From assembly GCA_944322325.1 (NCBI GenBank), contig CALUOQ010000001.1, forward strand, positions 368,619 through 432,618: a stretch of DNA of 64,000 nt, read 5' to 3'. Position 1 is the first letter of the stretch. Every line of letters begins with the position of its first letter. This document shows positions 7,811-63,965 of this stretch, in pieces. This DNA comes from an uncultured Alloprevotella sp. (GTDB taxonomy: Bacteria; Bacteroidota; Bacteroidia; Bacteroidales; Bacteroidaceae). The translations under genes were made by a program, and so were the position numbers. The notes under the pieces were generated by a model that saw nothing but the letters and a program-made list of their open reading frames with translations, ran no database searches and was not told where the DNA came from.

Positions 7811-8887
7811 TCACCACCTTGCGCTGCGATTCAGCAGAACGAAGTCCAGGACGACCATCGCTGCCATCGCTTCGACCACCGGTACGGCCCGAGGAAGCAC
7901 ACAGGGGTCATGGCGCCCGCGGGCGCGGACTACGGCGGGCTGTCCGTCGGTCCCCACGGTCTGTTGCTCCGTCAGGAGGGTGGCCACGGGCTTGAAGGCC
8001 ACGCGGAAGTAGATGTCCTGCCCGTTACTGATGCCCCCCTGAATGCCGCCGCTGTGGTTGGTGAGCGTCGTGACGCCCCCGCCGGGCGCGGGCACGAAGC
8101 GGTCGTTCTGCTGGCTGCCGCAGGCGGCCGCTCCGGCGAAGCCCTCGCCGTACTCGAAGCCCTTGACGGCATTGATGGACAACATGGCGGCGCCCAGGGC
8201 GGCGTGCAGTTTGCCGAACACCGGTTCGCCCAGCCCCGGCGGGCACCCCTTGACGACGCCCGTGATGACGCCGCCCACGGTGTCGCCGCGGCCTTTCACT
8301 TCCGTTATGAGCCGGGCCATCTCGACGGCTTTCGCGGCGTCGGGGCATCGCACGTCGTTCGTCTCGACGGCGTCGGGCGAGTAATGGGTGTAGTCGTGCT
8401 CCAGCGCGACGGGGCCCACCTGCGAGGTGTAGGCATAGACCGTGACGCCCATCTGCCTGAGCGCCAGCTTGGCGAAAGCGCCCGCCACGACGCGGGCCAC
8501 CGTTTCACGCGCCGACGAGCGTCCGCCGCCGCGGTGGTCGCGCAGGCCGTACTTCACGTCGTAGGTATAGTCGGCGTGCGAGGGGCGATAGACGTCGCGC
8601 AGGTTGTCGTAGTCGGCCGAATGCTGGTTCTCGTTGCGCACGAGGAAGCCGATGGGCGTGCCCGTCGTGCGGCCTTCGAACACGCCGGACAGGATTTCGA
8701 CGCGGTCGCCCTCCTTGCGTGCCGTGGTGAGCTGGCTTTGGCCCGGCCGTCGCCGGTCGAGCTCGTGCTGCACGAAGTCCAAGTCGACCGCCACGCCGGC
8801 CGGGAAGCCGTCGAGCACGCCGCCGATGCCCGCCCCGTGACTTTCGCCAAACGAGGTCAGGCGGAAAATGTTGCCAAACGTATTCAT
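7811..8887 (-). CDS. aroC: Chorismate synthase
   Basis: 358-residue AroC, which makes chorismate from 5-enolpyruvylshikimate 3-phosphate using reduced FMN, the last step of the shikimate pathway. The start [18 protein letters not shown] carries family signature 1, [23 protein letters not shown] signature 2 is present, and [13 protein letters not shown] lies near the end. The ATG is at 8885-8887; the longer frame only reads the slyD tail backwards in another phase. It lies 34 bp downstream of slyD and is probably co-transcribed. Confidence 0.95.
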
Positions 8888-8921: not shown

Positions 8922-9587
8922 TCAGTGGCAATGCCCGCCTCCGCAGCAGTGGCCGTCCTCGTGATGGCCGCCGTGGCAGTGGCCCTCACCGTGGCCCTCG
9001 CCATGACCGCAATGGCCCTCGCCATGACCGCCGCAGCCCTCCTCGTGGCCGCCGCAGCCGTCCTCGCAGTCGCCGCAGCAACATCCGCCGCCGCTCATGC
9101 GGTTGATGAGTCCCTGGATTTCGTCGTTCGTCGCCGGGCGCATCGTCACGACCTGGCCCTTGAAGTGCAGGTCGCGGCCCGCCAGGGGGTGGTTCATGTC
9201 GACTTTCACCTCCTTGTCGCCCACCTCGAGCACCATGCCGTGCAGGTGCTGGCCGTCCTCGTTGAGCAGCGTAATCACGTTGCCGGGGTAGATGTTGTCC
9301 TTGTCGAAGTGGCCGTTCACGCAGAACATCTGGCGGTCCAGACTGAGCACGCGCGCGTCCTCATAGTCGCCATAGGCCTGGTCGACGGGCAGGACGAAAT
9401 CGAACTCGCTGCCCTCGGCGAGCGCGGCGATGCGCTCCTCGAAGGCGTCGAGGGCGAAGCCCATGCCGGTGATAAACTGGAACGGATGTTCCGCCGGGGC
9501 CTTTTCGACCAGCTCGGCGGCGCCGTTCTCGTCCGTCGTATACAGTTCGTAGGCCACAGCCACGTACTTGTTTTCCTCTTTTTCCAT
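8922..9587 (-). CDS. slyD: FKBP-type peptidyl-prolyl isomerase, SlyD-like
   Basis: 221-residue SlyD-type prolyl isomerase and chaperone with a metal-binding tail. The FKBP part holds [19 protein letters not shown] and the insert-in-flap domain ([32 protein letters not shown]). From about residue 158 the protein is a low-complexity Gly/His/Cys/Glu tail ([12 protein letters not shown] followed by [12 protein letters not shown]-type units), as expected for Ni/Zn/Cu binding. The ATG at 9585-9587 is used; the longer frame has no family match. A TATCTTTG element lies 58 bp upstream. aroC follows on the same strand. Confidence 0.92.
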
Positions 9588-9644
9588 GATGCGTAATTTT
9601 GCGGTTATACGTACGCTCGCCGCCCTGCGCGGGCGGAAAGCAGG

Positions 9645-9652
9645 CAAAGATA
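9645..9652 (-). promoter_or_regulatory. Bacteroidota -7 promoter element (slyD-aroC)
   Basis: TATCTTTG on the minus strand upstream of the slyD ATG. Confidence 0.6.
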
Positions 9653-9810
9653 CGACTTTCCGGCCAAAGGCTGCGCCCCGTCCGCCGATAAATGCGCCCC
9701 ATGCCGACGCCCCGCCGACAAACGGCCCGGATGCCAGGCTTCCACGGCTACTGAATAAGGCCTGCTTCCCTCATTTGTAAAAACGGGATTGACCTCCACG
9801 ACGACGGGCG

Positions 9811-53769: not shown

Positions 53770-54456
53770 TTACCAGTTCTTTTCGAATTGCTTTCCGGCG
53801 GGCTGTACGTTCTTCACCTTGTCGCGTGTGCGCTGTTCGGCCTGTTTGGTCAGGTTGAGCAGCTGCTCGGCGTTGTCGCGCGACATCTGGTTCTGCTGCG
53901 ACTGCGTGGGCTTGCTTTCGTTCTGCTTCTGCTCTTCCTTCTTCTGCTTGTCCTCACCGTCCTGCTTGTCGTTTTTGCCCGCGTCGGGACGTTGCTGTTG
54001 CGGATTCTTCTTCAGCTGATGCTGGCAGAGCAACAGGTTGTAGCGCGCCTCCTCGTCGGCCGGGTTGTTGCGCAGTGCGTTCTTGTAGCAGTCGATGGCG
54101 GGGGCAAACTGTTGCTGGGATTGCAGAATGACGCCCATGTTGTGGTAGAACATCGCCTTGACCAGTTTGTTTTTCTCCATACCCACGCCTTTCTCGTAAG
54201 CCTCCATGGCCTCCTTGGGGTGCTTTTGCGCCAGTTGTGTGTTCCCCAGGTTGTAGTAGGCGCGGCTGCTGTTCGGGTTCACGCTCAGGGCGCGTTTGTA
54301 GCTTTCCTCGGCAGCGGCGTAGTCCTTGGCCTCATAACTCTTGTTGCCTTGGTGGATATACTGGTATTCCCGGCTCTGAGCCCCGGCGCGCTGCGGCGCA
54401 ATCGCCCCGAGCAGCCCGGCTACCGCCACGCAGAGAAATTTCAATGCGACCCTCAT
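53770..54456 (-). CDS. batC: BatC-like TPR protein
   Basis: 228-residue exported TPR protein. Signal peptide (about 1-26, ending RAGAQ), then three to four TPRs (SYEAKDYAAAEESYKRALSV, SSRAYYNLGNTQLAQKHPKEA, FYHNMGVILQSQQQFAPAI) and a very hydrophilic Gln/Lys/Asn tail. The ATG at 54454-54456 overlaps the batB stop by 4 nt; the longer frame starts inside batB. Confidence 0.9.
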   Translation of the reverse strand: MRVALKFLCVAVAGLLGAIAPQRAGAQSREYQYIHQGNKSYEAKDYAAAEESYKRALSVNPNSSRAYYNLGNTQLAQKHPKEAMEAYEKGVGMEKNKLVKAMFYHNMGVILQSQQQFAPAIDCYKNALRNNPADEEARYNLLLCQHQLKKNPQQQRPDAGKNDKQDGEDKQKKEEQKQNESKPTQSQQNQMSRDNAEQLLNLTKQAEQRTRDKVKNVQPAGKQFEKNW

Positions 54457-55469
54457 CTTCGGAAAAGTTTGAATTTCTTGAAAAACGGATTCTCGCACGC
54501 CGAGACGAACAGCTCAGCCACGAGGACAAGGAACAGGAGCAGCGCCACGGCCTGGAACTGCTCGTCGTATTCCGAGTAGACGGGTGTGGACATCTCCTTC
54601 TGGCTCAGTCCGGACAATGCCGCCTGGAGCTTGTCCTGCGCGACGCTGGAGTTGTCGACGTGGATATAAGTCCCCTTGCCGGCAGCCGCCACCTGGCGAC
54701 ACATGTCTTCGTTCAGCTTCGTGACGACCGTCTCGCCGTTACGGTCCTGCATGTAGCCGTCGCGCGTCGGTATCGGCGCTCCCTCGGGCGACCCGATGCC
54801 GAGCACGTACACGGCGCGCCCGTTCTTGGCGGCCTCGGCCGCGGCTTCCTCGGCTCCGCCCTCGTGGTTCTCGCCGTCGGTAATGACGACGATGGCCTTG
54901 CCCACGCCTTCGGTCTGCGTGAAGCTCTTCGAGGCCAGCGCGATGGCGCCGGCCAAGTCGGTGCCCTGCGACGTGATCATCGAGGGGCTGATGCCGTCAA
55001 GGAACATCTTGGCCGACACGTAGTCGTTCGTAATGGGCAGCTGGATAAAGGCCTCGCCGGCGAATACGTTGAGCCCCACCTTGTCGTCCTTCATTTTGTC
55101 GACCAGCCGCGACACGAGCAGCTTGGCCCGCTCCAGGCGGTTGGGCGAGACGTCGGTGGCCAACATGGAGTTCGACACGTCGAGCGCGATGACCACCTCG
55201 ATGCCCCGGCGCGTCGTGGTGTCCACGTGCGTGCCGTACTGCGGGCGGGCGAGCATGACCATCGTCAGACCGATGGCGACGAGCATGAAGGCATACTTCA
55301 CCCGCTCGCGCGTCCGCGACAGTCCCGGCGTCAGCGGGATGAGCAAGGCTGGGTCGCCAAAGCGCCGCAGCCGCTTGCGCACCTGCATCTCGGTCCAAAC
55401 GAGCAACAGCAGGCACACCGGCAGCAGCAGGAGTCCGTACAGGTATTGAGGTTCTGCGAATCTGAACAT
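54453..55469 (-). CDS. batB: BatB VWA-domain membrane protein
   Basis: 338-residue membrane-anchored von Willebrand factor A protein. Two N-terminal helices (about 8-25 and 58-75) precede the VWA domain with the MIDAS motif DVSNS (97-101), then ASKMFLDGISPSMITSQGTDLAGAI and VIVITDGENHEGGA; a last helix lies near 312-328. The ATG at 55467-55469 is preferred over a TTG 15 bp upstream. 15 bp after batA. Confidence 0.93.
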   Translation of the reverse strand: MFRFAEPQYLYGLLLLPVCLLLLVWTEMQVRKRLRRFGDPALLIPLTPGLSRTRERVKYAFMLVAIGLTMVMLARPQYGTHVDTTTRRGIEVVIALDVSNSMLATDVSPNRLERAKLLVSRLVDKMKDDKVGLNVFAGEAFIQLPITNDYVSAKMFLDGISPSMITSQGTDLAGAIALASKSFTQTEGVGKAIVVITDGENHEGGAEEAAAEAAKNGRAVYVLGIGSPEGAPIPTRDGYMQDRNGETVVTKLNEDMCRQVAAAGKGTYIHVDNSSVAQDKLQAALSGLSQKEMSTPVYSEYDEQFQAVALLLFLVLVAELFVSACENPFFKKFKLFRR

Positions 55470-55484
55470 AGCTAATGGATTCAA

Positions 55485-56489
55485 TTAGGGAATGCGCCGC
55501 AACCACGTGGTTCGCAACAGGAACTCCAGGAGCAGCGAGAGCAGGGCGGCCACCGCGAACGGCGCGTAGGCCTCATAGCGCTTATCGTAACGCGTCACTT
55601 TCAGTTTCGACTTCTCCAGTTTGTCGATGTCGTTGTATATTTCCTTCAGTTTCTGGCTGCTCCCGGCGCGATAAAACAGGCCACCCGTAGTCTGGGCTAT
55701 CTGTTGGAGCGTCTCGGGGTCGACGTCGACGGGCATGTTGACGATGTGCACGCCACCGCCCGGCAGCGGATAGGGATAGGGCGCCGTCCCGCCGGCGCCG
55801 ACGCCGATGGTGTACACGCGCACGCCGAACTGCTTGGCAATCTCGGCAGCGGTCAGGGGCGAGATATCGCCACGGTTGTTCACGCCGTCGGTCAGGAGGA
55901 TGATGACCTTGCTCTTGGCCTGGCTGTCCTTCAGTCGCGAGATGGCGTTGGCCAGTCCCATACCGATGGCCGTTCCGTCGTCGATGAGGCCCTGACCGGG
56001 CAAATCGCACGACACGCCGCGGAACATACTCAGCAACACGGCGTGGTCCACCGTCATGGGGCACTGCGTGAAAGCCTCGCCGGCAAACACGGTCAGGCCG
56101 ATGTTGTCCGTCGGACGGCCGGCAATGAACTCCGTGGCCACCTCCTTGGCGGCCTCGATGCGGTTGGGCTTGAGGTCCTGGGCCAGCATACTGGTCGAAA
56201 TGTCCATGACCATCATGATGTCGATGCCCTCGGTTTCGGTGTTGCTCAGCGAGTGGCTCGTTTGCGGCCGCGCCAGAATAATCACGACGAGCACAAGTGT
56301 CAGCACACGCAGCAGGAAAGGCAGCTGCACCAGTGCCATGCGCGGCGATTTCGGCACGTAACGGTAGGCTTCCGTGCTGGCCATCTTGAGCGACGCTTCC
56401 CGCTTGCGCCGCGACAGGAAGTGCCACAGCACCAGCGGTACGATGAGCAAAAGCAGGTAAAAGTATTCAGGACTGGCAAAAGTCATCAT
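55485..56489 (-). CDS. batA: BatA VWA-domain membrane protein
   Basis: 334-residue paralogue of BatB. Membrane helices near 10-25 and 58-75 are followed by a VWA domain with MIDAS DISTS (96-100), the Thr/Ser-containing GQGLIDDGTAIGMGLANAI loop and VIILLTDGVNNRG, with a C-terminal helix near 312-330. BatA and BatB likely pair through their metal sites in the periplasm-facing complex (family knowledge). 12 bp after the preceding gene. Confidence 0.93.
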   Translation of the reverse strand: MMTFASPEYFYLLLLIVPLVLWHFLSRRKREASLKMASTEAYRYVPKSPRMALVQLPFLLRVLTLVLVVIILARPQTSHSLSNTETEGIDIMMVMDISTSMLAQDLKPNRIEAAKEVATEFIAGRPTDNIGLTVFAGEAFTQCPMTVDHAVLLSMFRGVSCDLPGQGLIDDGTAIGMGLANAISRLKDSQAKSKVIILLTDGVNNRGDISPLTAAEIAKQFGVRVYTIGVGAGGTAPYPYPLPGGGVHIVNMPVDVDPETLQQIAQTTGGLFYRAGSSQKLKEIYNDIDKLEKSKLKVTRYDKRYEAYAPFAVAALLSLLLEFLLRTTWLRRIP

Positions 56490-56501
56490 GCAAATCAGAA
56501 T

Positions 56502-57587
56502 TTAGAAAAACGACTGGCGCAGCTCGCCGAACAGATAAACCACGAGTCCCACGGCCGCCACGGCAAGCACCAGCGCGCCGACCGCCATGGCGATGCGCAG
56601 CGCCATCTGCTTGTTTTCCTTCAGCACCACCTCCTTGACTATCGGGTCGGGCGGCAGTTCGGCCTCGACCTTGGTCTCGTTGATGAACTCGACGGCTTTC
56701 ACCAGGTTGGCGTCGTTCTCGCTCAGCGCGGCCTTGTACTTGGCAAACTTGACCAAGTCGGCCGTTTCGAGCACCTGGCGCAGCTCGCGTAGCGAGGCTT
56801 CGTCCTTGGCCTTCAACAGCTTGTCCAGAATTTCGGACGAGGTCATCTCTCGCGCGCCGAAATGGAAACGCTGCTCGATGTAGCGGCGGAGCACGTCGGT
56901 CAGGCGCACGTAGTAGTCCTTGGCGTCGTCCTCGTTCCAGTTGCGCTCCTCCTTGATTTTATTGATTTCGCGGATGGCCCACTTGTGCGGTGCCTCGGGC
57001 GGGCGCACCACGACGCGCCGCGTAATGGGGCGCCGGTTGAAGTAGCGCACCGTCAGGACGGCTGCCGCCACGAGCAGCACCAGTACGAGCGCAGCCAGCC
57101 AGAAGTAGAGGCTGCGCCACGTGAAAACGCCCTCGACCGCGCCCTTCGGACCGTAGAAGCGGTCGACGTGGAGCGTGTCGACACTGATGCCCGCCGTGTC
57201 TACCTTCAGGCCCAGCGGAGCGGACGCCTTGTACGTCTTGCCGCCCACCTTCACGGCGAAAGCCGGCAGGGTGTAGAGCGCCTGGTCGAACGACGTCAGG
57301 CGGTAGGTGCGCGTGAGCCGCACACGGCGGTTTTCGTTCAGATAGGTCGTATCGACGGGGCTTGCTTCGACGACCTCCACGCCCGGAGCTATCTGTCCGC
57401 CGTTCTTGTACTCGGGGAAATAGGCCCGCTCGCCGGCACCCAGCGTCACGCTGACCGACAGGTCGGCCTGCTCGCCTACGCGGATGGTCGTCGGGGTAAG
57501 CTGGCTTTTCACCACCACCTGCGCGCTGAGCGGAGCCAGCACGCCACAGAGGGCAAAAAGCAGGAGAAGCGATATTTTCTGATACAT
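56502..57587 (-). CDS. Bat-operon membrane protein of unknown function
   Basis: 361-residue protein with a signal peptide (1-22, ending PLSAQ), a BatD-like immunoglobulin segment (VKSQLTPTTIRVGEQADLSV), one membrane helix (about 158-177, YFWLAALVLVLLVAAAVLTV), a charged cytoplasmic helical domain (KWAIREINKIKEERNWNEDD and RRYIEQRFHF) and a final membrane helix. This gene is regularly found between DUF58 and batA in Bacteroidota and has no accepted name. Start at the ATG at 57585-57587. Confidence 0.85.
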   Translation of the reverse strand: MYQKISLLLLFALCGVLAPLSAQVVVKSQLTPTTIRVGEQADLSVSVTLGAGERAYFPEYKNGGQIAPGVEVVEASPVDTTYLNENRRVRLTRTYRLTSFDQALYTLPAFAVKVGGKTYKASAPLGLKVDTAGISVDTLHVDRFYGPKGAVEGVFTWRSLYFWLAALVLVLLVAAAVLTVRYFNRRPITRRVVVRPPEAPHKWAIREINKIKEERNWNEDDAKDYYVRLTDVLRRYIEQRFHFGAREMTSSEILDKLLKAKDEASLRELRQVLETADLVKFAKYKAALSENDANLVKAVEFINETKVEAELPPDPIVKEVVLKENKQMALRIAMAVGALVLAVAAVGLVVYLFGELRQSFF

Positions 57588-57630
57588 AGGAACTCTTGAT
57601 GATAAGCGAAGGCCGGCGAAAGGCGACCGA

Positions 57631-58503
57631 CTAACGCCGCCGGGCAAAGAGCGTCATCAGCGCCCGCACGTAGTCACCGTCCGTGGCCACCGAGACGTGG
57701 TCCACGCCGCAGCGGTTCAGCGTCTGGTCGAGCCACTCCTGCTGCTCGCGCCACCAGCGGCTGTGGGCGTCGCGTATGCGCCGGCTCGAGGTGTCGATGT
57801 ACTGTTCGTGCCCGGTCTCGGCGTCGACTACCTTCAGGAGGCCCACCCCGGCGGGCAGTTCGGCCATACGCCGGTCGTACACCTGCACGGCCACGAGGTC
57901 GTGGCTGCGGGCGGCGACGGTGAGCGGGCGCACATAGTCGGCGCGGTCGAGAAAGTCGCTCAGCACGAAAGCGATACTCCGCTTGCGCTGCGTCGACACG
58001 AGGCACTCCAGCGCCTGCCCGATGTCGGTGCGCCGGCCGGCGGGCTCGAAGCCGAGCAGCTCGCGGATGATATAGAGAATATGATGGCGGCCCTTCTTGG
58101 GCGGAATGAACTTCTCGATGCGGTCCGAAAAGAAAATGACGCCCACTTTGTCCCCGGTCTGCATGGCCGAAAAGGCCAGCGTCGCGGCAATCTCGGCCAC
58201 GAGGTCGCGCTGGTAGCGCTGACGCGAACCGAAATCGAGGCTGGCCGACACGTCCACGATCAGCATGACGGTCAGTTCGCGCTCTTCCTCGAACACCTTG
58301 ACGTAGGGATGGCCCAGGCGGGCGGTCACGTTCCAGTCGATGTCGCGCACGTCGTCGCCGGGCTGGTACTCGCGCACCTCGGCAAACGACATGCCGCGCC
58401 CCTTGAACGCCGAGTGGTACTCGCCGGCGAAGATGTTGTTCGTCAGCGCCCGAGTCTTGATTTCGATTTGGCGCACGCGCCTGAGCAGCTCTGTCGTTTC
58501 CAC
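57631..58503 (-). CDS. DUF58 domain protein
   Basis: 290-residue DUF58 protein with a degenerate VWA fold. Family block FKGRGMSFAEVREYQPGDDVRDIDWNVTA is split across residues 33-61, and the MIDAS-like DVSAS lies at 84-88. The start codon is GTG (58501-58503), chosen because relatives begin with this same METTELL-type sequence. It works with MoxR-type AAA ATPases; role in Bat assembly is inferred from position, 21 bp after moxR. Confidence 0.93.
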   Translation of the reverse strand: METTELLRRVRQIEIKTRALTNNIFAGEYHSAFKGRGMSFAEVREYQPGDDVRDIDWNVTARLGHPYVKVFEEERELTVMLIVDVSASLDFGSRQRYQRDLVAEIAATLAFSAMQTGDKVGVIFFSDRIEKFIPPKKGRHHILYIIRELLGFEPAGRRTDIGQALECLVSTQRKRSIAFVLSDFLDRADYVRPLTVAARSHDLVAVQVYDRRMAELPAGVGLLKVVDAETGHEQYIDTSSRRIRDAHSRWWREQQEWLDQTLNRCGVDHVSVATDGDYVRALMTLFARRR

Positions 58504-58524
58504 CGTTCGGAGGGTTTACGCGGG

Positions 58525-59520
58525 TTAGGGCACCTCGACCTTGTTGAGAATCTCGCTGACGATGCCGTCGGGCGCCACGCTGGCGGCCTCGGCCTCGTAG
58601 GTCAGCCCGATGCGGTGGCGAAGCACGTCGTGGGCCACGGCGCGCACGTCCTCGGGCACGACGTAGCCGCGGCGGGCCAGGAAGGCGCAGGCGCGGGCGG
58701 CGAGGGCCAGACTGATGGAAGCGCGCGGCGAGGCGCCGAAACCGATGTAGTCCTTCAGCTCGGCCAGCTTGTAGTGTTCAGGCTCGCGGGTGGCGAAGAC
58801 GATGTCGCAGATGTACTGCTCGATGCGCTCGTCGAGGTAGACCTCCTTGACCACCTCGCGGGCGCGGACGATGTCCTCCGTCGACACGACGGGCGCCACG
58901 GTCTGCCGATTGCCGCTCAACTGCTGGCGCACAATCTTCTTCTCCTCCTCGAGCGAGGGGTAGCTGATGACCACCTTAAGCATGAAGCGGTCCACTTGGG
59001 CTTCGGGCAGCTGGTACGTACCCTCCTGCTCGATGGGGTTCTGCGTAGCCATCACAAGGAAGGGATTGGGCAGGGCGAACGTCTCGTCGCCGATGGTCAC
59101 CTGGCGCTCCTGCATGGCTTCGAGCAGGGCGCTCTGCACCTTGGCCGGCGCGCGGTTGATTTCGTCGGCCAGCACGAAGTTGGCAAACACGGGGCCGCGC
59201 TTCACGGAGAACTTCTCCGTCGAGGGGCTGTAAATCATCGTGCCGATGACGTCGGCCGGCAGCAGGTCGGGCGTGAACTGTATGCGGCTGAACTGGGCGT
59301 CGATGAGCGACGAGAGGGTCTTGATGGCCAGCGTCTTGGCCAGTCCGGGCACGCCTTCGAGCAGGATGTGCCCGTCGCTGAGCAGGCCGATGAGCAACGA
59401 GTCGACGAGGTGTTTCTGTCCCACGAGGGTCGTGGCCATGCCGGTCACGAGGTCGGTGACGAATCCGGTCTGGCTCTCTATGCGGGCGTTGAGCTCGCGG
59501 ATGTTGATGGGTTCTGCCAT
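58525..59520 (-). CDS. MoxR-family AAA ATPase
   Basis: 331-residue MoxR AAA+ ATPase, chaperone-like partner of VWA proteins. Walker A GVPGLAKT (56-63), Walker B ANFVLADEINRA (113-124), sensor MATQNPIEQEGTYQLPEAQ with QVDRFM, and the C-terminal SPRASISLALAARA lid are present. First gene of the Bat operon: a TAATTTTG -7 element lies 66 bp upstream of the ATG at 59518-59520. The longer frame upstream has no family match. Confidence 0.95.
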   Translation of the reverse strand: MAEPINIRELNARIESQTGFVTDLVTGMATTLVGQKHLVDSLLIGLLSDGHILLEGVPGLAKTLAIKTLSSLIDAQFSRIQFTPDLLPADVIGTMIYSPSTEKFSVKRGPVFANFVLADEINRAPAKVQSALLEAMQERQVTIGDETFALPNPFLVMATQNPIEQEGTYQLPEAQVDRFMLKVVISYPSLEEEKKIVRQQLSGNRQTVAPVVSTEDIVRAREVVKEVYLDERIEQYICDIVFATREPEHYKLAELKDYIGFGASPRASISLALAARACAFLARRGYVVPEDVRAVAHDVLRHRIGLTYEAEAASVAPDGIVSEILNKVEVP

Positions 59521-59586
59521 AGTATGTGGGTTGCTGTTTCTGTTTCGTTTCGGAGGGGTTGGGGCGTTCCCGCCCTTTTCCGGCTG

Positions 59587-59594
59587 CAAAATTA
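59587..59594 (-). promoter_or_regulatory. Bacteroidota -7 promoter element (MoxR-Bat operon)
   Basis: TAATTTTG on the minus strand upstream of the MoxR gene. Confidence 0.6.
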
Positions 59595-59759
59595 GGGTAT
59601 TTCTGCTTTCGCGCCCTATAATCAATAAAAAAAAGCCTGACGAAGTGTTTACTACCGCTCCGTCGGTCCCGTCCCACCGGCCGAATGCCGGACGGGGCGA
59701 ACCCCTCGCCCGGACCGAAACGGCCGACGGGATTCTGCCGTATCCGCTCTTTCCGATAA

Positions 59760-60899
<1,140 letters not shown>

Positions 60900-61069
60900 T
60901 GACTTGGCTCCTTTTTACTTTCTTATACTGACGGGTTACTGACGTTTGGGTTGGAGAACAAATGCTATCAAACATAAAATAGCGGAGAAAATAATTTGTT
61001 TTGGTTTGTTCCTGCTTTTATCTGTTTACGCGAATGAACGGCAAATCTTCCCTTTGCTATGCTTTATTT

Positions 61070-61372
61070 TTATGCTTGTTTATTCAATAACAATGTAACC
61101 ATCGCTTCTTTACAATCGCTATCTTCTGTAATGATGCCAAATTGAATGTCTTCATAATTCAGCCATACACGGACATTATGCTTAAAATCTTCCAGTTCCT
61201 TGTTGGTTAACGGATATTGAACAGAAACACGTATGCAGACCATAGCGTTATTGTATCGGCTTAGATCAAGTTGCTGATATTGGGTCATAGAAACTGCAAT
61301 ATAGGCTAATCGGTTCTCTTGTCCGTTGGCAATGGAATGATAATCATATCGTGTACCATATTCCACCTGCAA
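61070..61372 (-). CDS. Small protein of unknown function
   Basis: Up to 100 residues if the TTG at 61370-61372 is the start; the next ATG (61286-61288) would give 72. I do not recognise a family. The sequence is soluble and mixed alpha/beta, ending YEDIQFGIITEDSDCKEAMV-type residues. It lies 33 bp after the neighbouring minus-strand gene and is probably in its transcript, which makes a non-ATG start in this frame plausible. Confidence 0.5.
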   Translation of the reverse strand: MQVEYGTRYDYHSIANGQENRLAYIAVSMTQYQQLDLSRYNNAMVCIRVSVQYPLTNKELEDFKHNVRVWLNYEDIQFGIITEDSDCKEAMVTLLLNKQA

Positions 61373-61405: not shown

Positions 61406-61825
61406 TCAGGGCACAGTCAGTTCTTGTATGATGGACTTCCTTCGTTCCATTTTGCTTTGTATGGGAGCATGACTTTTCCAAAAATTTTCAATCCTTTCCG
61501 CCGGAGAAAAACCATAAAAGATAATGTCGTATATACAATGTGCGGCAATTTCCTCTTTACTCAGAGTAGTATTCTTGGGTAAGACAAGCTCTTTAGCCAA
61601 TTTATTTTCCCAAAAATCCGCATCTAAAGACTGCACACTTATCCAATCCTCCTTTTGTACGATCCGAACTTTCCCGACAAACTCTGAGTTAGGCTCCATG
61701 CCACGAAGAATATCGTACGCATCCCGAAAGGCATAGATATTGTCAAGATGCCCGACTATTATTTCTTTTAAGTAAGGAAGCAAGTCATCAAATTCCACTT
61801 CCATGATTAATTCTTTCACCGTCAT
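61406..61825 (-). CDS. Conserved Bacteroidota hypothetical (DUF6557-like)
   Basis: 139-residue soluble protein resembling a conserved Bacteroidales hypothetical family that I believe is DUF6557 (from memory). It begins MTVKELIMEVEFDDLLPYL and has HLDNIYAFRDAYDILRGMEP in the middle and IYDIIFYGFSPAERIENFW near the end. The family is seen scattered on mobile elements and near toxin-like genes, with no assigned function. The ATG at 61823-61825 is preferred over a further upstream start. A minus-strand TATCTTTG element lies about 160 bp upstream. Confidence 0.65.
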   Translation of the reverse strand: MTVKELIMEVEFDDLLPYLKEIIVGHLDNIYAFRDAYDILRGMEPNSEFVGKVRIVQKEDWISVQSLDADFWENKLAKELVLPKNTTLSKEEIAAHCIYDIIFYGFSPAERIENFWKSHAPIQSKMERRKSIIQELTVP

Positions 61826-61974
61826 AATCACTCTGCTTTTAAAGATTCTGGTTGCAAAATAAAGTTCAAGATATGCCATATCAGTACATACACCTTAAAA
61901 ATTAATGAGAATATAGCAAAGTATAAGTATAAATTCTTTCATCTTGTGCTTCGATGTTGCATATCTTCAACTTA

Positions 61975-62094: not shown

Positions 62095-63081
62095 ATGAAA
62101 GAAGAATCGGATATAATATTTAATTTTCCTTCGCGTAATTCAGAATATTCCTCCATTATAGTGGGCATTGGAGGAGGAGCAAGCCGTATAGTAGACCAAA
62201 TGCGAAAACGCTGCTTCCTTGACGTGGGACTTGTGGGACTGTATGCGTTTGGCATGAATCGGAAAGAAATGAACGAATTGTCCTTGTATAACAAATACCT
62301 GATTGGACAGGAAGGATTGGGCAGTGGAAAAAATCGTTTTCTTGCGGAGTATGAATGTAATAATTCACTTCCTGTGATAGAGAACATTTTGAAGAACAAA
62401 CTAATAACAGTGTTTGTGGTATGTCTCGGAGGAGGAACAGGAGAAGGGTGCATAAGGTCGTTTCTTGGGAAAGCAAAAGAGATGCAATCCAGAGCAATCA
62501 TCTTAGTGGCAACAATTCCCCATTCATCTGAGGGAAAAGAAAAGCGAAAGAATGCCTTAGGATTATTAAAGGCACTGGAACCAATGGTAGATGGTCTTCA
62601 TATAGTAGATTACGATGACTTTCAATGTAATACGTTTACGGAATTGTTCCAAAAAGCAGATAGGAAAATTATCCAATTTACGGATGCATTTGTGGGAATG
62701 GTACTTCGTTATTGTCTGATAAGCTTCGACTTTAATGACTTGAGAGCCTTCTTGGAATATCCGACTCCTTCTAAAAACATAAACTTTTTTACGCTTACTG
62801 GTAGTGTGGATTTCTTGAGAAGCGAATTGTTAGAAGAGTGGTGCAAAAAACTTCCAGCGAAATATTCATCTGTAGATGATGTGGCAATGATTATATTTGC
62901 AATCGAGTTTACTGATTGGTTAGATGATTCAGAGGAGGCAACTGAGCTTATGAATGTGATAAATGATTTTATGCAACAAATTTCTGCCGGTACCGAGGTT
63001 AAATGGGGCATATATATAGATGAAACTATTCCATCACATCAATATCGGATAAATATATTCACAAAATGCAGAAGGCAATAA
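62095..63081 (+). CDS. Divergent FtsZ/tubulin-superfamily GTPase
   Basis: 328-residue protein recognised by tubulin/FtsZ loops, not overall identity. T1: IIVGIGGGASRIVDQM (21-36). T3-like region GQEGLGSGKNRF (71-82). T4 signature: CLGGGTGEG (110-118) for FtsZ GGGTGTG. After it VATIPHSSEGKEKRKNALGLL (138-158) parallels the FtsZ strand-loop ending PF-x-EG-x-R. T7 synergy loop: SFDFNDLRAF (210-219), keeping both catalytic-position acids (Asp212, Asp215). The FtsZ C-terminal tail peptide is absent. It is thus likely a polymer-forming GTPase distinct from the cell-division FtsZ. A glycosylase-like gene follows after 41 bp on the same strand. Confidence 0.8.
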   Translation: MKEESDIIFNFPSRNSEYSSIIVGIGGGASRIVDQMRKRCFLDVGLVGLYAFGMNRKEMNELSLYNKYLIGQEGLGSGKNRFLAEYECNNSLPVIENILKNKLITVFVVCLGGGTGEGCIRSFLGKAKEMQSRAIILVATIPHSSEGKEKRKNALGLLKALEPMVDGLHIVDYDDFQCNTFTELFQKADRKIIQFTDAFVGMVLRYCLISFDFNDLRAFLEYPTPSKNINFFTLTGSVDFLRSELLEEWCKKLPAKYSSVDDVAMIIFAIEFTDWLDDSEEATELMNVINDFMQQISAGTEVKWGIYIDETIPSHQYRINIFTKCRRQ

Positions 63082-63122
63082 GTTTAAATAAACTACTAAC
63101 CTTATAGTTAGATCTACAACAA

Positions 63123-63965
63123 ATGGAAACATTATCAGCACAATTAACAGAGCTTTACAACAAGCATTGGGAAAGCTTTATGGAACAACTCGAAGCCAAT
63201 GGGCTGAGAGACAAACTGCAATGTCCGTTCTTGATTTCTTTATTGCGGTCAGGTCAGAAAAAGGAAGAAAGAGAAAAAGACCCTAATTGGTATTCAAAAA
63301 AAGAAACTCCCGAACACGAAGAGTGGTACACGAAAGCCGACATCAAAATTATGTTTTTTGGTCAAGAAACACATGGATGGGAAAAAGATTTGGATATGGG
63401 CGACCTCATGGGAAGTTATGAAAACTTCCTTGACGATAAATATGTAATGGAAGGGAACGGAGGTTACTTTAACGAGGACGAAGTAGGCAACACACGAATG
63501 TTCCGCTTTGCTATCAATGGAATCATGTCGTGTATAAGAGAGGATATATTGCAAGCCTATCCAGACAAAAGAGTCTCCATGATATGGAACAACATTTCCA
63601 AATTATCGACAGTGGAAGGAAGACCGGTAGATACAAAGACACACGAGATTGAACGCAAATGCTTTCATGTTATACCACAAGAAGTTGAGATTCTAAAACC
63701 GGACATCCTCATATTTTTTACAGGACCAGGAGAAAATACATACTATAAGTACATCAAAGAAAACTTTACCATAAACGGTGAACCATTACCCCTTGGCGGA
63801 CTGTCGGTACATGATGTAGCCAAGTTGCCAATAAAAGAAGTAGGATTAGCCTACAAGACCCACCATCCCAACTCTACAATATCAGATAAGTGCCATTGGG
63901 ACAATTACAAAGCCATCCTTGCTGACATCAAAGAAAACATCGACAAACTATTGAAGAAAGAATAA
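63123..63965 (+). CDS. Uracil-DNA-glycosylase-like protein
   Basis: 280-residue protein with motifs placed as in the UDG superfamily: IMFFGQETHGWEK (77-88) in the place of the water-activating loop, an internal WNNISKL (155-161), EILKPDILIFFTGP (189-202) like the conserved core strand, and THHPNS (246-251) like the minor-groove His loop. The region between 90 and 150 is unusually long. The first motif has no clear catalytic Asp/Asn match beyond Gln-Glu-Thr, so activity on DNA is uncertain. Possibly co-transcribed with the FtsZ-like gene. It ends 35 bp before the window edge. Confidence 0.65.
   Translation: METLSAQLTELYNKHWESFMEQLEANGLRDKLQCPFLISLLRSGQKKEEREKDPNWYSKKETPEHEEWYTKADIKIMFFGQETHGWEKDLDMGDLMGSYENFLDDKYVMEGNGGYFNEDEVGNTRMFRFAINGIMSCIREDILQAYPDKRVSMIWNNISKLSTVEGRPVDTKTHEIERKCFHVIPQEVEILKPDILIFFTGPGENTYYKYIKENFTINGEPLPLGGLSVHDVAKLPIKEVGLAYKTHHPNSTISDKCHWDNYKAILADIKENIDKLLKKE

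Follow-up and report, generated by a model that had tools for sequence, protein, structure and literature searches.

What is an FtsZ-type protein doing in AT-rich accessory DNA, directly upstream of a gene whose product weakly resembles uracil-DNA glycosylases (UDGs)? The question is raised by two genes that we call Z (62,095-63,081, forward strand) and U (63,123-63,965, same strand), found at one end of a 64,000-nucleotide stretch of contig CALUOQ010000001.1 from an uncultured Alloprevotella sp. (hereafter the window). Because relatives of Z lie beside a weakly glycosylase-like protein or beside the RNA-repair ligase RtcB, in islands rich in defence-type genes, the locus points to the recruitment of a cytoskeletal-type protein for conflict or repair in bacteria. 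More specifically, we consider it quite possible, if somewhat short of probable, that Z descends from FtsZ and was recruited as a nucleotide switch into conflict or the repair of nucleic acids. Z would then assemble in a nucleotide-dependent manner and act as a switch serving nucleic-acid-processing partners in such a role, with a trigger, partner activation and protection as predicted parts of the mechanism.

The identity of Z rests on profile matches, a profile alignment and a comparison of residues. Z matches PF00091 (FtsZ/tubulin superfamily) above the gathering score (38.9 versus 33 bits), scores 76.1 bits against the 295.2-bit cut-off of the curated equivalog TIGR00065, which it does not reach, and stays below the cut-off of PF13809 (Tubulin_2/FtsZl1; 17.6 versus 27 bits). 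Aligned with canonical FtsZ by hhalign, it covers both the GTPase and the C-terminal domain (290 columns, probability 99.2). Z is an FtsZ-class protein that ends at the C-terminal domain, with neither the linker nor the C-terminal tail for FtsA/ZipA-type partners, and it is encoded outside the division cluster. A preliminary description of the window was therefore right that the protein is short and tail-less, as it was about the surrounding AT-rich accessory DNA (GC content about 0.38 from 60,829-60,838 on, in an apparently mobile island).

For the residue comparison, six full-length Z proteins (that of the window and five others, L036-L040, 45-66% identical to it) were set against E. coli FtsZ and 60 rows of canonical FtsZ, among them near-identical ones. 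GGGTG, E138, D209 and D212 are retained in all six, and with them the phosphate loops and the T7 aspartates, as the preliminary description had claimed for the loops of the window protein. Four sites invariant in the 60 canonical rows are changed in every Z (N24 to R, N43-T44-D45 to G-M-N, T110 to E and N165 to Y), and N207, present in 58 of the 60 rows, is S, T or C in all six. N24 and N165 of FtsZ are, we take it, guanine contacts; with base-side residues changed, nucleotide binding by Z may be altered relative to canonical FtsZ. Judging from these alignments, Z appears to have retained the residues of assembly-coupled catalysis while its base side was rebuilt. Ratios of nonsynonymous to synonymous substitution rates (dN/dS), which are rough because most dS values exceed 1.5, were 0.10-0.34 in 10 of 21 pairs of Z, 0.53 in the near-identical pair of the window and G160 and saturated in 10 pairs; for U they were 0.10-0.15 in 13 of 28 pairs. 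It is conceivable, if quite improbable, that Z is a decoy absorbing phage or interbacterial proteins aimed at FtsZ: such islands do hold extra housekeeping-type proteins (DprA, FtsK, DnaQ, KaiC/DnaB-type), but a decoy would have no need of the T7 aspartates that are so strictly retained, and Z has strongly diverged from host FtsZ.

If Z is instead a recruited switch, which partners might it serve? The preliminary description had proposed that Z and the UDG-like protein could form a defence, plasmid-segregation or element-maintenance module, and in its exact form this pairing is not conserved: among the loci found, Z and U adjoin in the window and in one near-identical Paraprevotella element (L003) and nowhere else, so that a conserved Z-U pair was rejected for the full-length Z family. 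What survives is a broader association of FtsZ-type with UDG-like proteins, resting on weak UDG assignments, and a setting in defence-type islands. In L053, a mini-FtsZ consisting of the GTPase domain alone lies directly 3' of a U homologue, and in L113 a mini-FtsZ forms the C-terminal part of a 405-residue protein, preceded by a weakly UDG-like domain; together with that of L115, all three mini-FtsZs exceed the PF00091 cut-off. Z also precedes RtcB at a spacing of 8-10 nucleotides in three loci (L038, L039 and L040), and the mini-FtsZ of L115 lies 95 nucleotides upstream of RtcB, bringing such arrangements to four loci. In L047, RtcB (PF01139 E 1.4e-59, 202.9 versus a gathering score of 27 bits; 70% identical to the RtcB of L040), a gene designated c44 and U stand in a one-strand row with gaps of 1 and about 70-76 nucleotides. 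RtcB is present in 5/7 Z genomes versus 11/294 other genomes. Pairwise links exist in all three combinations (Z-U and U-mini-FtsZ; Z-RtcB and mini-FtsZ-RtcB; RtcB-U), plus the one fusion. It is possible, if doubtful, that FtsZ-type GTPase domains, UDG-like proteins and RtcB make up one modular, undescribed conflict or repair system of Bacteroidaceae, in which the cytoskeletal GTPase would be a nucleotide-gated switch, or a platform for assembly, in the repair or cleavage of nucleic acids. Should Z prove functional, the FtsZ fold would have gained a new use, and gut bacteria amenable to genetics would offer a small system in which to test it; the existence of an FtsZ domain fused to a domain with weak UDG likeness is part of why the locus matters.

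Several observations weigh against such a system, and most of them would be expected if Z, U, RtcB and other genes were independent cargo, shuffled separately through hypervariable islands, Z and U not working as partners. Only one element type has full-length Z next to U, and in three sister loci (L043, L046 and L048) the slot of Z is occupied by a DprA-like gene on the opposite strand, which in L048 is split over two overlapping open reading frames (ORFs). Just left of Z lies an approximate mosaic breakpoint (61,730-61,735), where identity to L003 in 150-base bins jumps from 84-95% on the left to 98-100% on the right, implying that the Z-U part was exchanged recently. Two of the three RtcB genes adjoining full-length Z are damaged, beside an intact Z. 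Furthermore, the mini-FtsZs were detected in loci selected for U or RtcB, which is a source of ascertainment bias, and U itself has no match to PF03167 (UDG superfamily), its best relative scoring 19.5 bits against a gathering score of 24.3. Independent cargo is nonetheless rather unlikely in our view, given that the fusion and the U-to-mini-FtsZ pair exist in other genomes and that Z and RtcB are so tightly spaced in three loci.

As for U, it is only weakly UDG-like when judged by profiles and motifs. Sub-cut-off PF03167 matches occur in 4/13 members of its family, which shares three near-invariant motifs (G-x-E, W-N-x-x-x-K and H-P); the usual residue of the first UDG motif is D, where U has E. 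The U-family profile matched none of the solved structures at E <= 10, hhalign of U with host UNG gave no significant alignment (probability 1.2), and the U family aligned with a second UDG-like family at probability 21.6 over only 19 columns. Solved-structure searches with two U relatives, the U-like protein of L037, DUF6557 and c26 returned no match or weak unrelated ones. Of the UDG-like gene that the preliminary description placed after Z, the arrangement stands (same strand, 41 nucleotides on) and the glycosylase identity is weak. A 28%-identical relative of the UDG-like part of the L113 fusion was seen on a Pseudomonas conjugative plasmid (L180, 4,001-4,543), near a TerD gene and with no annotated FtsZ neighbour.

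The mini-FtsZs raise another possibility, namely that Z or mini-FtsZ acts on host FtsZ, by capping it or by co-polymerising with it, and halts division as a form of abortive infection. All three mini-FtsZs stop before T7 and retain N24 and N165, and a filament capper would be expected to look like just such an FtsZ, reduced to its GTPase domain and lacking T7; Z, for its part, has T7 but no tail, and 5/6 Z share with Bacteroidaceae FtsZ an E.KWG-type C-terminal signature. We regard FtsZ antagonism as unlikely overall, though less so for mini-FtsZ.

How would a recruited Z switch relate to known systems? Accessory FtsZ families, FtsZl1 and FtsZl2, are already published (PMC2875224), and some conflict systems have been predicted to contain proteins of the tubulin family (PMC7159879); Z resembles both as an accessory FtsZ/tubulin protein away from division, some of these being in conflict systems. 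The published RtcB2-PrfH counter-toxin operon (PMC9223846) likewise has an accessory RtcB with a role in conflict, but the neighbour of RtcB here is an FtsZ-type gene; PrfH was not recognised by eye beside Z-RtcB, no profile search for it having been made. There is also a likeness to DprA/ShosA-type defence (PMC9122126) in the DprA-like genes of the Z slot and in the related DprA of L037, which matches ShosA models at 2.4e-54. Among the open-access papers listed, no title or opening of an abstract connects an FtsZ-like protein to RtcB or to a UDG-like protein. Two papers that mention both FtsZ-like proteins and RtcB do not connect them in the passages covered, nor is the combination mentioned in passages of a family overview (PMC9871819) or of a WYL/CARF paper (PMC4012209). 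What appears to be new against this literature is an FtsZ-class protein near RtcB or glycosylase-like genes on apparently mobilizable DNA.

That DNA was pieced together from several contigs, none of which has every part; the window contig ends after U and shows the attachment (att) end alone. At the left junction, a host GH97 glycoside hydrolase ORF (59,814-60,902, forward strand; PF14508 GH97_N E 2.8e-80 on 59,928-60,902) is cut after its N-terminal domain, about its last 23 codons being tRNA-derived sequence. The AT-rich island begins at a run of ten G (60,829-60,838), with 96.7% identity to L003 from 60,833, and the att end consists of the 3' half of a tRNA-Pro(GGG) and a terminator-like stem (60,833-60,914, forward strand, the stem at 60,884-60,914), matching L003 from 8,740, inside an intact tRNA-Pro (8,705-8,780). 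Next come two pieces of a DUF6557 gene, split by a frame interruption and divergent from Z: a C-terminal piece (61,070-61,372, reverse strand) and an N-terminal one (61,406-61,879, reverse strand; PF20194 E 8.6e-6, just below cut-off). In L003 they form one ORF (8,976-9,785) that exceeds the PF20194 cut-off. L003 is a Paraprevotella contig with a relaxase (PF03432 1e-36) and MobC, and a sister element in L169 has a tyrosine integrase. From the tRNA-Pro context and these mobility genes, the carrier of the Z-U cassette is apparently an integrative mobilizable element that targets tRNA-Pro, with the cassette at its att end. L043 and L046 begin at the same tRNA-Pro point as L003, with different left flanks, and have six G at the junction, as does L003. 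The ten-G run of the window, together with the contig end just after U, makes a chimeric contig possible; alternatively, the element may have integrated at a secondary site resembling CGTCTGGGGG. The L003 copy lies in a clean tRNA context and is independent of this question. A MoxR/vWA (bat-like) gene cluster was recognised by eye at 54,453-59,871, in the host DNA to the left of the junction; it was not seen in the L003 stretch, and we therefore do not count it as belonging to the Z module.

A tubulin-superfamily protein on a mobilizable element also recalls TubZ and PhuZ of plasmids and phages, and Z could in principle segregate or maintain its element. We consider this highly improbable: Z matches TubZ (4xcq) at E 6e-7, but far more weakly than it matches FtsZ, and PHROG PhuZ at E 0.0086; moreover, the carrier is integrated, no centromere-like (tubC) repeat array was found, and a TubR-like partner was not recognised by eye, no profile search for TubR having been made.

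How widely, then, is Z distributed? In the surveyed family, taken to be Bacteroidaceae (G160 being a Paraprevotella record), Z was found at E <= 1e-25 in 8/399 genomes, in two places in G160, and at the same threshold its own genome was the only hit in an order sample of 295. Whole-genus searches with the family profile gave 4/61 (counting frames of 327-331 residues only, the remaining matches in that genus being of canonical length), 2/18, 1/158 (a broken copy) and 0/15, the last showing little for want of a positive; all positives were already within the family's eight. In a phylum sample of 296 genomes, the matches listed at E < 1e-25 comprised the own genome and canonical-length frames only. 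A weaker FtsZ match in that survey (G1031:C13:68288-68926) has an open frame of only 255 residues. In three genomes of the window's genus (L022-L024), a second long FtsZ ORF (367-381 residues, cut by locus ends) stands in tandem with canonical ftsZ. U was found in 14/301 family genomes, weak relatives included, and had no match in plasmid or phage collections. Candidate homologues of Z on two plasmid records (L025, L026) and one phage record (L027) were rejected, the former being ftsZ of canonical length that follows an ftsA identified by eye, the latter a 448-residue FtsZ ORF of canonical length. Scans of viral contigs for exact short peptide patterns (two per scan in two of them), which can miss relatives, turned up no relative of Z itself, of the Z or U family, of a DprA-like protein or of the fusion. 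RtcB relatives, 39-55% identical, occur on seven viral contigs of 27-165 kb (L173-L179); neither the Z nor the U family had a match in the stretches covered there.

Finally, the company that Z keeps bears on its proposed recruitment. Islands with Z or mini-FtsZ carry WYL, DUF6557, phosphoesterase, DnaQ, GmrSD (in L115) or PDC-S26 genes, and the island of the broken Z copy encodes a PDC-S26 candidate defence protein (L041, 14,061-15,311; E 7.7e-97). PADLOC models matched neither Z, mini-FtsZ, U nor the fusion. When eight Z loci were compared by Fisher test with 20 control regions from Z-bearing genomes, DUF6557/phosphoesterase (6/8 versus 0/20; 7e-5), WYL (4/8 versus 0/20; 0.003) and RtcB (3/8 versus 0/20; 0.017) were each enriched. 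Contig 2 of the window's own genome (L106) has another island, AT-rich in part, that carries RtcB, a KaiC/DnaB-type ATPase, a PLD-type gene, several DUF6557 genes, WYL and DnaQ.
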